Shown in pieces: positions 1-53,999 of a DNA stretch of 64,000 nt. The notes under the pieces were generated by a model that was not told the DNA's origin, made no database searches, and worked only from the letters and a program-made list of their open reading frames with translations. Source of the DNA: Nymphaea colorata. Its lineage: Eukaryota > Streptophyta > Magnoliopsida > Nymphaeales > Nymphaeaceae. The translations under genes and the position numbers were made by a program. The stretch is taken from NCBI RefSeq assembly GCF_008831285.2, contig NC_045146.1, positions 4,226,972 to 4,290,971 on the forward strand. Reading direction: 5' to 3'. Every line of letters begins with the position of its first letter. The first letter of the stretch is position 1.

Positions 1-1819
1 ATAGTGAAAGAAGGATTGATTGTTGAGGCGTTATGTTTTCTTGGAGCAAACGGTTCAATGAACTACATCGAAAGGGGTTGGGTTTCGTGGGTTGGATTCA
101 AGTAGGGCCAAACTGAACCCAAATCCAAACAATACATAAATGCAACAAAAAATTTTCAATTTTTTTAACGTAGACTTTTTTTTTCCAATTAGTTTGAGTG
201 GGACTATGGCTTAGGTGGCCCCCTCTCCCTCCCCCTGATTCTACTTATGATTTGAGCAGATGATCTATTGGCAATGCATACGTAGTACATGTCCATGCTT
301 ATTTCCATGACAGTCATATACAGTACATGTTCATGAAAAATATTGTATTGCTCAATGATGAATTGTTTTGAAATAATTTATTGTTATTTAATTCAAACTA
401 TCTATTTCTCATATATTCAGCTTGTTGGGATGATTCTTTTTTTCTTGAAAGAATAAGGTTATTAAATATGAGACCAATGTAAGGCGAGCTCCCCTAGTTA
501 CCAAAGTTGTCGATGTAAATGTGTATCAATTTCACCAACTTGTATAGTAAGACATGGTCGAAATTCAGGGAGATTGTTTTGTGATTTTGAAAATACATAA
601 ATAAACTTTTCTGAATGATTAGATTGTATAGTTGTGGTTGTGATTGATTGCTATTGTATTTATTATTTATCTATTTTTATAATAGGGAACTACAAAATAT
701 TGTCATTTTTTAATGATATTTGCAAAGGATGACAACATGCAATTTTTTGCTCAATAATCAATTGAAGGACGCATGAAAGTTGAGATTGAATATGAATCAG
801 AAACTCGAAGAGTGTGATAATGAATCTACACATGCTCTAAGAAACTATGAAGAAGTAACGCAAGACATAAATAGTTTGAATATTAATAATATTCTAAATA
901 TGAATATAAAGCTGAGTAACAAGGTGATGATGCTTTTAGGTTTAACGACATTGAGGCATGTAAATCGCTCAATCTCTTTGCATCTGTCTCACATGTTTCT
1001 ATTGTGGGTGTAACAACATTGAGCACCATTGAACCTGATGTATATAGTATTAAGGGCAATATCTTCATTAACGCTCTATCGTATTAATTATATGACTTTG
1101 ACAACTGTTGTAATGTAATGGAAAGCCTACAAACACTTTCCATTCTGCACATACAAACTAGAGAATAATCAATTTATTAATTTTGTGGAAGTCATTATTT
1201 TCTGTTTAAATACAGGTTTTGGATGCAAAAAACATGAATTTTACAAAAGATTCTCCTTACAGAAAAAATAGAACATTAAAAAATAGATCATCAAACCGCA
1301 TGAAAACATGACTTCATCTTTTGTGCTAAAATCAACTTTAAATTTTATTTCTCCCATCTCAAATGTGGGAGAATTCGTCTTACAACCGTTGAGTGTTGAA
1401 TCTTAGGGGCCTTTAGTTGGCCATTCAATGTTGAATCTTAGAGGGGATTTAGATAGACAAACATAACGATATGCAGTACAACTTAGTTGAAAGGTACAAT
1501 CAAATCAAATAGACAAAAGTAACTTTGTTTCGTTTATATCTGCCATTCACAAGCAAAGAATGCTTTAAAGTTAAAAGACAATGATGAGGCAAAAACCATC
1601 AAGACTAGTTGTAGCATGTGCTCTACCAGTTTATCCACAAAAGGAACGGTGAATCAAGAATGAGAAAAATATGTAGCTCATCTACAAATGGCATGGCTAT
1701 GATTAGGAAATCAAAATCCTGTCCTGTCCAGTGACACATGACATCTTGTACATGCAAAAGAAAAAGATAACTGAAGCAATCCTTGAGTTGAGAACAAGAC
1801 TTGAGTTGATAATACACAC
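1..1819. other. gene-free AT-rich stretch
   Basis: No domain or exon structure is recognised. A short open frame at 780-1013 (77 codons) has no family motif and no codon bias and is probably chance. Simple A/T runs are present but no structured repeat is seen. Confidence 0.6.
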
Positions 1820-2006
1820 CAGTGGTGGAGCCACATTTATGTGGGTGTGGGCAGTGGCGCACACCAGCCCCAGAAAATCTCTTTATTTTCATATTGATAT
1901 ATATTTTGAAAAATATGTTCATTTATATATAGCACTACCACTTAAGATGTGAAGGTTTTATATTTAATGTCCCTCGATCAGCCCAAAATTCCTAGCTCCA
2001 CCACTA
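1820..2006. mobile_element. hAT-type MITE
   Basis: The left end CAGTGGTGGAGCCA is matched by an inverted right end (TAGCTCCACCACTA), giving terminal inverted repeats of about 13 bp. The flanks atacacac (1812-1819) and atgcatac (2007-2014) agree at 6 of 8 positions, as expected for an aged 8-bp hAT target duplication. At 187 bp it has no coding capacity. The TIR style and 8-bp flank point to hAT; the family name is inferred. Confidence 0.65.
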
Positions 2007-2976
2007 ATGCATACTTCCATAGTGTGCTCACACACAGACACACTCACGTGAGCTGAGAACAAGACTTGAGTTGATAATACGAGGTGTGATGAAATATGTT
2101 TGCATTTGGCTGAGCGACACACAACTTCCATATTCTCATATTGCTAAATCTTTGCAAGTCTACAAGCAATGAACAGTTGAATACTGCCAAATTTATGATA
2201 AACATATAAATATCCGAGTACAGAAATCTTGCCGATGTTAAATCATTCTATATGACTATCACCAAGTTCGCCTTTCTTCCAAGGGAATGTGAATTCATGT
2301 AAGTCCTTTGGTTGCATTCTTTATAAATCTCATTCCTTAGCACTCTTTCAACAAGAGAATATCTATGATAACAAAAAAAAAAAAAAAGCATGGGCAAGAA
2401 GTCCACGTTTTTCGGGATGTAATCACATCCTAATTGAGATATAAATTAATTCTAGCACCTACATATATCTAGAAACAAATAAAAGGGTAAATTTGGCAGC
2501 ACAAATAATTTGAAAAATACAAAAAAAAATTTTATGATCACTTATGTAGCAATATCAATGCATGGCAAGAGATCAATATCATTGTTAGATGACTTGTCAT
2601 GGAAGACTAGCCATCATTGCACATAGAAACACATTTGTCTTCATTTTGTGGACCAAAACAACTATTTTGTTTGAGTGCGAGAAACATCATGTGTAAAAAT
2701 AAGCCATGTCCCTGGTCATGTCACTAAGAAGAACAGTCAAGTACCTACTTCATATTGGTGATTTGTGTTCAAAACATTTGAAGACACAACATTACATGCA
2801 TATTTCAATTTTGGCACTACCCTGGATTTTAAGGTCACCTACGCTTCTTTCATGTTTTAAATATTGAACTGCAATGCAAAAGCAAGCGTCGATGCGGTGT
2901 TGGTGCAAGTGGTGTCCCTGCCACAGCAGCGACACTTTTTGTATACGCCGTAGCTACAAGCAGCGATGCTCTTGTA
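2007..2976. other. intergenic, nothing recognised
   Basis: AT-rich sequence with a 15-base A run near 2370. No exon or transposon end is visible before the Copia target duplication at 2977. Confidence 0.5.
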
Positions 2977-2981
2977 CATAG

Positions 2982-3248
2982 TGTTAGACTTGTGATATGT
3001 TTGGGTCTGGGTTGGGCTCTCACTGGACCTGTCCAATATGCCTTATTTTGATTGTACGTTAAGAGTGTCGTTGTAAATACCCATTATACCTAAGGGTACT
3101 TCTGTAATGATGGACATTAGGGTGTCTGCCCTAATTATAATTAATTTAACTACCCACATTTATTTTAATTGTGACGTGCAATTCTCTTAGCTCTATTCCC
3201 TTCATTATCTATTATTTTTTGCTATGATCAATTTTGGAGTTTCTTACA
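2982..3248 (+). repeat. 5' LTR of Copia 1
   Basis: The 267-bp repeat begins TGTTAGACTTGTG and ends TTTCTTACA. It is homologous to 15934-17382 once the nested insert is removed. The primer-binding site follows directly. Confidence 0.92.
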
Positions 3249-6110: not shown

Positions 6111-6730
6111 TTTTTCATAAGAATATTGATTACTTTGTTTTATGTAATTTTGATTGTGTTTGTTATGCTCATATTGATTTCTCTTAGAGAAACAACTTTC
6201 ATCACAAGGCTCTGAGATGCAGATGATTATAAGGGATATAAGTGTCATAATTCTGTCAGCAGGCAAATTAAAATTTTAAAAAAGTGATTTTCAACTAATA
6301 CAATTTTTATGATGAGGGAGGTAATTTTGTACATCTTGACCTACACATAACTCATTATGATCATTGGCTGAGTGCATGACTTCTTTCTACTAGCAATATT
6401 AATGATTCTTGTTCATTTAATCTGGCTCCAAGTTCATCTCATATAAAGCAGTACTTCAATACATATGATCTAACATCCATTGAGAAGTTTTTTGGGCAAG
6501 TGTATTTTAGGGGTGATATGAGAGTTTTTCCCAAAACCAATGATGAGCAGAATCTATCCATGGATGAACATTCCTCTGCATAGAATGCTCTATTTGCAAG
6601 AAGATCAGATAGGATTCAACATCTCATAGTTCATGATAGGTTTAGCATGGACCTTTAGCTATTTCTCTCACAAATTTAGAAGCAAAATGAGCAAAAGAAA
6701 TCATTTTCTCAGGTTACTGCTTCTATCAGG
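6111..6730 (+). pseudogene. Copia 1 integrase-RT linker, degenerate
   Basis: By position this is the poorly conserved stretch between integrase and reverse transcriptase. No frame stays open for long. The last bases, reading QVTASIR, join in frame across the hAT insertion to WIQTLNEEIKGMH at 8570, the start of the RT domain. Confidence 0.55.
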
Positions 6731-8561
6731 TAGGGGGGTGCACAATGAGTCGAGCTACTCGAGCTCGACTCGTTTAAGCCCGACTCGTAAGCGAGTTCGA
6801 GTTGCTTCATTAGTTAAACGAGTCAAGCTCGAGTTCACGGGTCGACTCGTTTAACTAATCGAGCCGAGTTCGAGTTCACTGAAGTGGACTCGTTAAAGCT
6901 CGACTCGGCTCGATTAGTTAAAATACTGGTTTAAAAAAAACCGGTTCAGCACTTCTCAGGCGGGAAACTCATAACTCCTTTTCAGTTTAGGTTTCCTTTT
7001 TCCTTTTTCCTTTATCCCTCTCTCTGACTCCGACCCTCCCTCTCTCGGTCTCTTCGACTTCTCCTTCTCTTCTCTGTCTCTGTGCTCTCCATTATTTCTC
7101 CAACCATGAAGTTCCTTGACCACCATCACCGGCCTGTGGCAGCGTTTGGTGGCATCCGGTGGTTTCTAGCCACTGGTGAGTCTGTCCATCCAGAAAATCA
7201 AAGATAAGTTATTTGGTTTTTTCTATTTATTTCCACTTTCTTCTTCTCCTTCTTTTTCTTCAAGGGCATGTTTGCTGGACGTAGCCATGGATGACGCAGA
7301 AACAGAAAATGAAGAAGAAGGAATAGAAGAAGAAGAGGCAGAATGGAGAAAATATTAGTGTTATTCTCTTTCCGCTTCTTTCTTTCTCTGGCATGAGACG
7401 TAGCTGCTACGGGTGATGGCGTCCCCTCTTTCCCTCTCTTTCTTCCTCATAGGCAAGGGAGGAGGAAAAAGGGAAGGAGGGAGAAGGAAGGGCCGTAGAG
7501 GAAGAAGGGAAGGTGGGAGGAGGAAAATACCAGGGAGGAGGAAGAATGGAAGTGGAGAGCGAGGGAGGAAGTGGTCGTTCCTCCCTGCATCCCTCCTCTC
7601 TTGAGGTAGAAGAAGGGGAGAAAGGAAGCCAGTGTGAGCATGCTTCTGACAGGCAGATACAGAAGAGGAGAGAGAACTTCCCGTTCTCGCTTTTGATCAT
7701 AGACTCAACTCTTCGGTAGGTAAGCCATCTATGTGTGTCTCTTAAAACTTGGCACAAATCGTGAAACTATAATTTCTTCTCATGGTGGTCTTGTGTTATT
7801 TAGTGCTTTGGTTGTCTAGAAAGTAAAGTTTCTTGCTTTTCTGCTCAATGGATTGGTTGTTTGGGTAAGCAGCGGTCATCAATTTGTCATTTTTATCGTT
7901 TTCTTTCCTTCCTGTCCACTGTAGATTAGGTGCACGAAGCTCCTTTTATAATTTCGCCAGAGCACCATCCACCATCTTCCTCCTTCACCCTTTACGATTA
8001 TGTTCCTCTGTTGAAGAAAACCACAAGTCTTTTTGCCTGTTTACCCCCTTCTTACCCCCTTCTTGTTTGGCGAAGAAGAAGAGGGGAAAAGGAGTTTGAG
8101 TGTCTTCTTTTGATGGTTTGGTTGATTAGGTTTCTTTGCAGGGTAAGAGGGTCACGTATGTGCGGAGGACCAGAGGGCTTGATGCAACAAGCATTGTGTT
8201 GTGGGATGGAGGACGCAGGGTTTTGTGTTGGCGGCAGAAAGATTACCGCCTGCTCTGCTTTTTTGGAGCTCTCGGCCTCCGATGACCTGATTGGGTTCAA
8301 GCAGGCCGTCGAAGAGGATGGCTCCGCCATCGATGAGGCCAGCTTCTGGTACGACGGGTCCTCCAACAGGAAGATGGGCTTCGTCCAGAGGACGCCGTGC
8401 TCTTCAGCAGCATCGACAGAGGAATAAACAAGTTAAACGAGTCGAGCTCGAGCTCGTGTTAGGGAACTCGACTCGAGTTCGAGCTCGAGCTTGAGCTCTT
8501 TGAGTCGAGTCGAGCTCGAGCTGGGCAAGTTCGGGCTCGACTCGGCTTATGTGCAGCCCTA
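6731..8561 (+). mobile_element. non-autonomous hAT element with captured gene pieces
   Basis: The termini TAGGGGGGTGCACA and TGTGCAGCCCTA are inverted repeats of hAT type. A perfect 8-bp target duplication CTATCAGG flanks it (6723-6730 and 8562-8569), and excising it restores the Copia RT frame. Subterminal regions (6745-6930 and 8428-8550) are packed with GAGCTCGAG and CGACTCG(TTTAA) motifs in both orientations, the usual arrangement for transposase binding. No transposase is present. The interior looks like plant gene sequence: a possible short coding start at 7106 (MKFLDHHHRPVAAFGG) followed by a possible GT donor near 7176, purine-rich tracts, and a zinc-finger gene exon (see 8158-8427). 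Confidence 0.92.
8158..8427 (+). pseudogene. captured 5' exon of a plant tandem-CCCH zinc-finger (TZF, ankyrin-type) gene
   Basis: The frame starts MCGGPE, like the MCSG/MCCG start of this family. It goes on through CSAFLELSASDDLIGFKQAV, then DEASFWYD and MGFVQRTP, which match the N-terminal ankyrin-region signature of arginine-rich TZF proteins (FSxLLELAANND...DEAxxWY...QRTPL). A TTTGCAG acceptor just upstream fits the 5'-UTR intron seen in such genes. Homology stops after QRTP, and neither the ankyrin core nor the two CCCH fingers follow, so about 60 informative codons remain. The parent proteins are regulators of mRNA and stress responses; this copy is a fragment carried by the hAT element. 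Identity comes from memory of the family, not from a search. Confidence 0.75.
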
Positions 8562-9010
8562 CTATCAGGTGGATTCAGACGTTGAATGAGGAGATAAAGG
8601 GGATGCATCAATGTCAAACTTGGACTATTGTTTCACATTCTCCTGATAAAAATGTTGTGGATCTCGATGGACACATAAAATCAAATACAAGATAAATGGA
8701 AGCGTGGAATGTTATAAGATGTGTCTTCTTGCTAATGGGTACACCTATAAATTTAGACAAGATTATGATGAGATTTTTAGCTGATTGTGAAGATGGGCAT
8801 GATCCATATTATATTGTCCATGGTAGTCCATCATGGATGAAAAGTGAGTCAACTGCATGTTAATAATACATTTCTTCATGGTGACTTAAAGGAAGAGGTG
8901 TATATGGAGCAGCCCCAGGATATTATGAAAGTGAACACAAAAAAGCATCAGAACAACATAAATATGATTTAAGAGCACGTCCCAAAAATGGCCTAGGACT
9001 CCTTCCCCAG
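8562..9010 (+). pseudogene. Copia 1 reverse transcriptase, N-terminal part
   Basis: Reads WIQTLNEEIKGMHQCQTW and later LHVNNTFLHGDLKEEVYMEQ, clear matches to the Copia RT segments W..AM..E...L...TW and QLDVKNAFLHGDLEEEVYMEQ. Stops and frameshifts interrupt it. Similarity fades near 9010, where the unresolved insert begins. Confidence 0.85.
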
Positions 9011-46858: not shown

Positions 46859-46940
46859 CGTCCTGTTGAGAAGAAACTTCCAATAATTGATAGCAGACAG
46901 AATTCAAGAGAGAGAAACAATTGGGCAATAGCCATACACC

Positions 46941-51999: not shown

Positions 52000-53150
52000 C
52001 TTAGATGTTCAAAGGTAGTATAAAATAGGTGGATCTGTTAAGTAAAGTCCAATACCTTTGAGAATATAACCGATCCGTGTAAGTTCAGCCACAACAGATG
52101 CCATGAATCAATACTCAGCCTCTGTATTTGACCATGCTATAGTGGGCTACCTATTAGAAGTCCAATACAAGTAGAACCCAAAAAAGTAGCAAAACCAATA
52201 GTGGGATGTCTGGAAGCTTGGCGACCAGCCTAGTTGTTCTGAAAAAGTAACATGGAAGTTAAGCTATTATTGAACATATAAATTGCATCCAATCTCAATA
52301 GAGCAATGAACATATTATAAGAAACTTTCTAGAAGCTGAAAATGACTTGTCATTGGGGACCACATATATTGGCTAAAGAAAATAACAGTGAAGGAGGTGC
52401 CTGGTCTTGTAAATGTCAGATATTGTAACCCTCTAATTGAGCTTGATTATAGTGTGGTATCTGTAAATGGAGCGTTGTCTACAAACGTTTTCTAATTTTG
52501 CATCAATGGTGTAATTCCTGGTTTGCAAGAGAGCAAATTAACTTTCTCTGGCAAGTTATATAGATGCCGGTGTTGATTGAGAAAGAGCCTTCTATGTATT
52601 TTAACAAATCCTTGTCAGAAAACCATATTATTGCTAGTTAGAATAATGTCATCAACATATAGGAGAAATTAAGATAGTGCTTTAGTATCATTCAAAATAA
52701 ATAATGATGAATCAGAGACACATGAAAAAAGCTTTTGAAAGTTAATAGTACCAAAGTGATCATACCATGCTTGTAGGGTTTGGTGAAGCCTATCGTGTGC
52801 CTGATGAAGCTTACAAACATGATTTGGGTGAGTATAATCAACAAATCCCAATGGTTGCTCAATGAACACAATTTGATCCAACTCTTCATGTAAGAACATA
52901 TTCTTGACGTCCATTTTTCGAATGTCCCATTTGTGACTAAGAGAAATAGTTAAAGCAATGCAAATGGTCACATGCTTGATGACCAGGGAGAAAGTCTCTA
53001 GAAAATCTGCCTCATGAACTTGACTAAAATCTTGAACCACCAATCTAGCTTTCAAGAGTTCAACAGTTCCACTGCTTTTAAGCTTAGTTTTAAATACCCA
53101 ACATGTAGACACCACATTCGTACATGATGTGCATGGTACTAGAGACCATG
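52000..53150 (-). pseudogene. Copia 3 RT and RNase H
   Basis: The reverse frame at 52669-53115 reads WVFKTKLKSSGTVELLKARL, then WDIRKMDVKNMFLHEELDQ and IEQPLGFVDYTHPNHVCKLH, a long stretch of Copia RT. Beyond it, in another frame, LLYVDDIILTSNN keeps the catalytic YVDD motif, and QYLTFTRPGTSF follows. RNase H text (NTEAEY, AELTRI) appears near 52.1 kb. Stops and frame changes make it inactive. Confidence 0.88.
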
Positions 53151-53999
53151 TTCAGCATTGCTCAAGAGCGTACATTTCTTCTTTCATAGAATCAACCCAA
53201 CCTAGATCCTCAAGAACTTGTTTTACGCTCTTGGGTTCAAGTGGGATGGCAATTCTAAGAAGTACTTTGGATTGGGCATGGAGAATCCATCCATGGCTCG
53301 AGTAACCATAATATGTGTATTTGTGCTAGTGGTGGTAGTTGGGACAGTAAGAGACATAAGTTGTGCAACAACTTGGTGTGTCGACTAAGGGGTTCAGTTA
53401 TCATGTACAAGAGGGGGTTCTACCTAGCTGCGACCAGATCAAGAGTAGTATGATTTCTGAAGGCCATTAATCCCTTACATGTGATCATTAGTCACAAGTG
53501 AGTTTGAGGCCAATCCTCCATCATCATTGTGCATAAGATGAGTACTATCGCTACATAAATCTTCAGCACACCTTAAATCTTCATCATGAACTAAGAAACG
53601 ACAAAGATCAAGTTCCATATCAGTCCAGTCACCAAAAGTAATTTCAGCCTGTTGTGACAAGGTAGGAGAAAATAATGTCCTTGGTTGTTTATAGGGAAAA
53701 TTATTTTTATCAAAGACAACATTTTTGGATATATAAATTCATCCTATAGGAAGATGTAAACATTTGTATCCTTTTTTAACAAAACAATACCCCAAGAAAA
53801 CACACAGCAAGGATCTGGGTTCAAGTTTATTAGGTGCATAGTCATGCAGAGATGAGAAAGACTGAAACCTAAAAATGGTCAAACAAGAGTATGAGGGGTT
53901 TTTCCAAAAACAAGTTCAAAATGGGACTTCAAATGCAGCATTGCAGTTGGCAGGCTATTAATAATCAAGACAACAATGAAGAAAGAATTTACCCAATAG

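Follow-up and report, generated by a model that had tools for sequence, protein, structure and literature searches.

The element and its insertion site

We analysed a stretch of 64,000 nt of Nymphaea colorata NC_045146.1 (hereafter, the window) together with the 408-Mb genome to which it belongs. At positions 6731-8561 the window holds a complete non-autonomous hAT element of 1831 bp, recognizable by both termini and by a target site duplication (TSD). Features within the element are on the plus strand, except for the right terminal inverted repeat, which is on the minus strand.

The two copies of the TSD, CTATCAGG at 6723-6730 and at 8562-8569, are identical at 8/8 positions. A T follows directly after both copies, and the border can also be read one base further right. 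The element begins with TAGGG and ends with CCCTA, a type of terminal inverted repeat that we take to be hAT-like. The left repeat, TAGGGGGGTGCACA (6731-6744), pairs with the right one, TGTGCAGCCCTA (8550-8561), which is read as TAGGGCTGCACA when inverted; the two differ in length by 2 bases. There are 36 TAGGG and 29 CCCTA sites in the window, and among their pairs lying 300-5000 bp apart only 6731/8561 has an exact 8-bp TSD. Subterminal words of the CGAG/CTCG type are concentrated in the element, which holds 33 of the 54 in the window; 500 first-order Markov simulations of the element averaged 1.5 such words and never exceeded 6, the word set having been picked after the element was seen. 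The initial annotation of this locus had described a hAT element with a perfect 8-bp TSD, hAT termini and dense subterminal words, and this description is borne out. No hAT transposase coding sequence was found within 6731-8561.

The element sits in a decayed copia relic, because its flanks, joined through one copy of the TSD, give an uninterrupted copia-type frame over the insertion point. In tblastx, 43 residues of the joined flanks align with a further copia copy at window positions 53110-53238 (E 2e-6). The piece after the joined site has, in the next frame, a weak RVT_2 match (E 0.011, below the cut-off). No gene resembling the donor described below is present at the insertion locus.

Two other features of the window may be mentioned. 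The copia copy with which the joined flanks align belongs to a reverse-transcriptase stretch at 52672-53238 (minus strand; RVT_2 E 1.1e-26 in 52672-53151). An open frame at 48640-49707 matches the ANTH domain (E 2.8e-20); its first exon is presumably the upstream frame at 46932 (MPSKLRKALDAVKDQTSIGLAKV...), and we assume the whole to be a clathrin-assembly-type gene.

The captured gene piece and its donor

A large part of the element, 7573-8418, was taken from a gene with ankyrin and CCCH zinc finger domains (ANK-TZF). Its limits follow from homology to the donor and from the alignment of sibling copies, which bridges a 13-bp deletion and extends the piece to ~8418. The search of the genome with the whole element, proposed initially as a means of finding the donor TZF gene, revealed it intact on C5, along with sibling elements. 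The donor is an uninterrupted ORF of 680 aa at C5:16130675-16132717 (minus strand) with Pfam matches to Ank, zf-CCCH_AtC3H23 and zf-CCCH; the ankyrin matches start at residue 78 and the CCCH matches at residue 219. Its segment C5:16132475-16133306 (minus strand) matches window positions 7575-8397 (element positions 845-1667) with 744 of 854 alignment columns identical (87%) and has no hAT ends. Within the surrounding 8 kb of the donor locus, no match to the element was found apart from the captured piece. The element lacks what lies ahead of the 5'UTR piece in the donor, as the match begins at 7575.

The captured piece opens with a putative part of a donor 5'UTR exon (7573-7719), which ends in TAG before the splice-donor-like GTAAGC. 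Next comes a probable 5'UTR intron of 422 bp (7720-8141; 39% T; GTAAGC...TTTGCAG), recognized by consensus and position. The acceptor ahead of the ATG has its homologue in the donor, and the window copy has lost one base just before it; the initial claim that the upstream acceptor had been retained thus holds. A generic scan for splice sites is weak evidence alone: four donor-like sites against 1.95 expected and four acceptor-like sites against 7.0 expected, with the acceptor at 8141 absent from the list.

Coding sequence follows at 8158-8397, where 80 open codons (MCGGPEG...VQRTP; GC3 0.73) correspond to donor codons 1-81 minus one. The last nine codons and the stop of this 89-codon frame (8398-8427) lie out of the donor frame after the 13-bp deletion near 8394-8397. 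This deletion is private to the window copy and explains both the end of the BLAST match at 8397 and the nine out-of-frame codons. The 89-codon frame shares 73 of 86 aa with the donor protein, so that the genome's own donor confirms its assignment to the N-terminus of plant TZF proteins. The frame at 8158 also aligns with two plant ANK-TZF protein sequences, with 31/86 and 21/55 residues identical; neither score was equalled in 2000 shuffles, and a score of 119 at this frame compares with 46 at the best unrelated place in the window. One of these two sequences was checked by Pfam and has ankyrin and CCCH matches.

The piece contains neither a zinc finger nor a complete ankyrin repeat. Pfam reports no domain in the 89-aa frame, tandem CCCH zinc fingers included, and a PDB search with it returned three chance-level matches (best E 0.3). 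The zinc finger is missing from the window copy because the donor frame stops where the first ankyrin repeat begins. The initial description as a captured tandem-CCCH gene exon is therefore correct as to the gene and incorrect as to the zinc finger, which is not carried. Collections of bacterial and archaeal and of viral contigs gave no confirmed match to the TZF N-terminus, as expected for a plant gene.

The second foreign piece

A second foreign piece (~7081-7570, boundaries from alignments) separates the hAT left end from the ANK-TZF piece and is an internal part of a repeat family that we take to be PIF/Harbinger-like. It includes the ATG at 7106, where a second captured piece had initially been supposed to start; the foreign piece does exist, while its start is near 7081 and its origin is a repeat. 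Among the matches listed are C1:29001028, C2:7467939, C6:25308965 and C2:13499198 at 85-88% identity and C1:11431406 at 77%. All five loci lack hAT ends at the piece and resemble each other beyond it, over ~550-1319 aligned bases. In three of them the TIR-like ends GGGGCYGTTTGATG...CATCAAACRGGCC can be read on both sides, with a TAA/TTA TSD in two of these three. A second host gene at 7106 was considered and set aside, the piece belonging to a repeat family. The 33-aa frame that starts there has no Pfam match.

Some details of the repeat loci (L010-L013 and L019) deserve a record. The family reaches ~1.3 kb and has PIF/Harbinger-like ends. The copy in L011 contains a frame, VKLLDHHHR..., resembling the window frame at 7106. 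In L010 there is a separate short match to subterminal sequence ~3 kb from the repeat piece.

Sibling copies of the element

The genome was searched with 7574-8430, all candidates being scored, and the eight matches are seven element copies and the one donor gene. Besides the window copy there are C8a and C8b, close together on C8, C2a (C2:17401877), and three shortened copies at C2:1057441, C5:15117040 (C5p) and C2:26869979, those on C2 being labelled C2p and C2q. According to the alignment, all seven share the junction of the hAT left end with the PIF-like piece, followed by the TZF piece. The intron region is complete in four copies and partial in the other three. Distinct perfect 8-bp TSDs flank the window copy, C8a, C5p and C2q; the TSD of C2a matches at 7/8 positions, and C2p has lost its left end. 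As seven copies have the same arrangement with the intron kept, and four of them have different perfect TSDs, the gene piece was captured once, as DNA, and then transposed. The initial annotation had named as a contrary outcome that sibling copies lack the TZF piece while a donor-like gene stands at this locus; in fact 7/7 copies carry the piece and there is no such gene here.

C2q retains donor bases that the other six copies have lost (an 11-bp stretch, a 3-bp stretch and ~16 bp at the 3' end), and for this reason it was probably the first to branch. The longer 3' donor sequence of C2q shows that the original capture extended to about donor codon 97. All copies except C2q (6/7) have a deletion and a 5-bp insertion at the very 3' end of the captured piece. 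The copies in L014 and L015 have nearly the same internal deletion of ~395 bp (element ~650-1044), which suggests, from the sequences compared, that the deleted form continued to transpose.

Two observations concern the surroundings of the copies. In C8:12661000-12667000 (L017) two element copies lie close together, both with the right flank GATGTTACATTATGC, and the second has a damaged left end; C8b consequently looks like a local tandem duplicate of the C8a element and its flank. C2a is located 2 bases from the apparent right end (CGTGTTCACCCCTA) of another hAT element (C2:17401840-17401880, at ~840-880 of L018).

Relatives with transposase domains

The search with the whole element scored the best 40 of 1600 candidates, and the count of elements with these ends is therefore a lower bound. 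A search for the hAT dimerisation domain scored the best 150 of 1113 candidates. We took six loci (L062-L067) in which a left end like that of the element lies 4-10 kb from such a domain. The left end (element positions 5-326 to 5-358) is present in all six at 78-82% identity, and the right end in all six at 75-82%. Thus the hAT left end with its CGAG/CTCG words at 6731-7080 is common to longer relatives, and the right end with its subterminal words at 8421-8561 matches theirs; the junctions, near 7081 on the left, are placed from alignments.

Judged by position, the dimerisation domain is between both ends in five of the six loci and beyond the right end in L062. Both loci tested with Pfam have hAT RNase-H and dimerisation domains in their ORFs. 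Perfect 8-bp TSDs, ATTTCAGC, CCTAGGAA and TATAGATG, flank three of the five transposase-bearing relatives, whose lengths by coordinates are 6.5, 8.8 and 7.0 kb, respectively; no matching TSD was seen in the other two. We do not claim an active source, because in the loci read the frames for transposase are broken up into more than one ORF. L062 itself holds a 2.6-kb relative at 563-3162 with both hAT ends and the TSD ATGCTAGC; no transposase domain was found inside it among the matches listed (best 150 of 1113).

Fate of the captured coding sequence

Frame-shifting indels within the captured codons are present in six of the seven copies (C8a, C8b, C2a, C5p, C2q and the window copy). The frameshift of the window copy is in its 80th codon, at the very end of the captured codons, and this copy retains 80 open donor-derived codons and both splice signals. 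C2p has no frameshift in the captured codons; its acceptor AG is changed, with another AG one base on.

Private changes were counted in six copies, C8b being left out as a duplicate of C8a. They comprise 17 synonymous and 30 nonsynonymous changes and no stop, whereas 16.1, 29.4 and 1.5, respectively, are expected when the same mutation spectrum is placed at random; the probability of as few replacement changes is 0.44. The dN/dS values are 0.20-0.48 between copies and donor and 0.30-0.67 between the window copy and its siblings, from small counts. Values below 1 can be explained by the constraint on the donor itself, a C-to-T bias and the small counts. As far as can be judged from these sequences, the captured coding piece appears to be decaying without detectable selection.

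Origin of the element

We are highly confident that the element is of the Pack-TYPE kind (a Pack-hAT), with hAT ends around PIF-like and ANK-RR-TZF pieces, a single capture at the DNA level, later transposition and a neutral frame. Three observations correspond to what defines such elements. A parental copy of the captured coding DNA exists elsewhere, namely the 680-aa ORF on C5; a 422-bp intron-like stretch collinear with the donor points to capture at the DNA level; and the same chimera in four copies with different perfect TSDs indicates transposition after capture.

The history of the element may have been as follows. A hAT family coding for transposase would have given rise to a derivative that kept ~350 bp of the left end and ~140 bp of the right end. 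At the DNA level, a piece of the PIF/Harbinger-like repeat, followed by ~850 bp of the ANK-RR-TZF gene, would have taken the place of its interior, possibly through faulty repair or template switching after excision; the PIF-like and TZF pieces need not have been acquired in the order in which they stand. The Pack-TYPE model in which nearby insertions are mobilised together, as outlined in PMC8903248, may apply, but the 8 kb covered at the donor locus gave no match to the element besides the captured piece. The ancestral ANK-RR-TZF capture probably comprised the tail of 5'UTR exon 1, the intron after it and ~97 codons, and the shared junctions support a single event that preceded the separation of the known copies. 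The chimera would then have spread to several sites, one of them the copia relic, presumably by transposase supplied in trans, after which the coding fragment would have evolved without detectable selection.

Several other explanations were considered. The ATG-led frame and the GTGAGT donor-like site in 7081-7570 would fit an origin of this piece from an exon of a host gene (MKFLDHHHRPVAAFGG...) and not from a transposon; there is a similar frame in L011, and the PIF-like repeat may itself have captured a gene earlier. We regard this origin as unlikely, given that five loci share the piece together with flanking sequence from a common repeat, which reaches ~1.3 kb, and that the 33-aa frame has no Pfam match. 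It is extremely improbable that the TZF piece arrived in the form of processed cDNA or within a retrotransposon. The location of the element in a copia relic could hint at such a route, but the 422-bp probable 5'UTR intron has been kept, in collinear order with the donor, and siblings at other sites hold the piece inside the same hAT chimera. We give virtually no credence to the view that nothing was captured and that the hAT element happened to insert into a segmental duplication or a local TZF gene in decay: the six siblings elsewhere, which have the same content, refute it, and so does the empty site, which reads as continuous copia-type sequence.

The captured piece could also be in use, either through RNA of the element acting on the donor (as siRNA or a decoy transcript) or through translation of the 89-codon frame into a small N-terminal protein. 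The window copy does have an ATG, 80 donor-derived codons, a 5' splice site and an acceptor, and seven copies could supply homologous RNA. Against such a use, the private coding changes fit neutrality, frames are shifted in six of the seven copies, C2p has its acceptor AG changed (with the AG one base further kept), and nothing from farther upstream in the donor is included. On this balance we hold a present use to be very improbable. In a more elaborate form, the element family would be a mobile supplier of RNA from the ANK-TZF 5'UTR and N-terminus, and this RNA would tune the donor, a stress-response gene, in trans, with the window copy still being read; this seems to us very improbable. The Pack-TYPE origin with neutral decay of the coding piece remains our preferred explanation.

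Comparison with known elements and significance

The initial view that gene capture by hAT elements is less well documented than by Mutator elements and Helitrons should be qualified, since hAT elements carrying gene pieces are in print for grapevine (PMC2528002), maize Ds2 and Ds-l4 (PMC3260210) and maize Pack-hAT (PMC8903248).

Like the Pack-hAT and Pack-TYPE elements of Gisby and Catoni (2022, PMC8903248), the element described here is a non-autonomous TIR element with hAT ends and coding DNA of a host gene. It differs from the Pack-hAT elements as presented there in that donor, siblings and transposase-bearing relatives are resolved and in being a chimera of a PIF-like repeat and one gene piece. 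With maize Ds2 and Ds-l4 (Du et al. 2011, PMC3260210), of which two Ds2 and nine Ds-l4 elements have gene fragments, it shares hAT ends, an 8-bp TSD, an intron-containing genomic filler and a donor on another chromosome; its subterminal words are CGAG/CTCG, in contrast to AAACGG in Ds, and its donor gene is different. Hatvine-6 of grapevine (Benjak et al. 2008, PMC2528002) is likewise a hAT family; its variable part frequently corresponds to genic sequence and includes transduplicated exon and intron sequence. Unlike the present element, in which no transposase coding sequence was found, Hatvine-6 shares such sequence. The donor has the ankyrin and CCCH architecture of plant ANK-RR-TZF genes as described in PMC8609832, whereas the piece in the element stops where the ankyrin repeats begin. 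Judged by titles, we found no paper on hAT capture of a TZF gene; one abstract concerned domesticated transposon genes. A text search for TZF peptide words of this piece likewise found no paper.

Capture of genes by hAT elements is a known phenomenon, and this TZF-carrying element is a new and unusually well-resolved case of it. Ends, TSD, donor, transposase-bearing relatives and seven copies are all within one genome, which makes the case unusually complete, and two foreign pieces are joined within one element. The sequences show directly in which order events took place, and that the captured coding piece has apparently evolved neutrally. The element adds to the evidence that gene pieces are shuffled by hAT elements, beyond Pack-MULEs and Helitrons.
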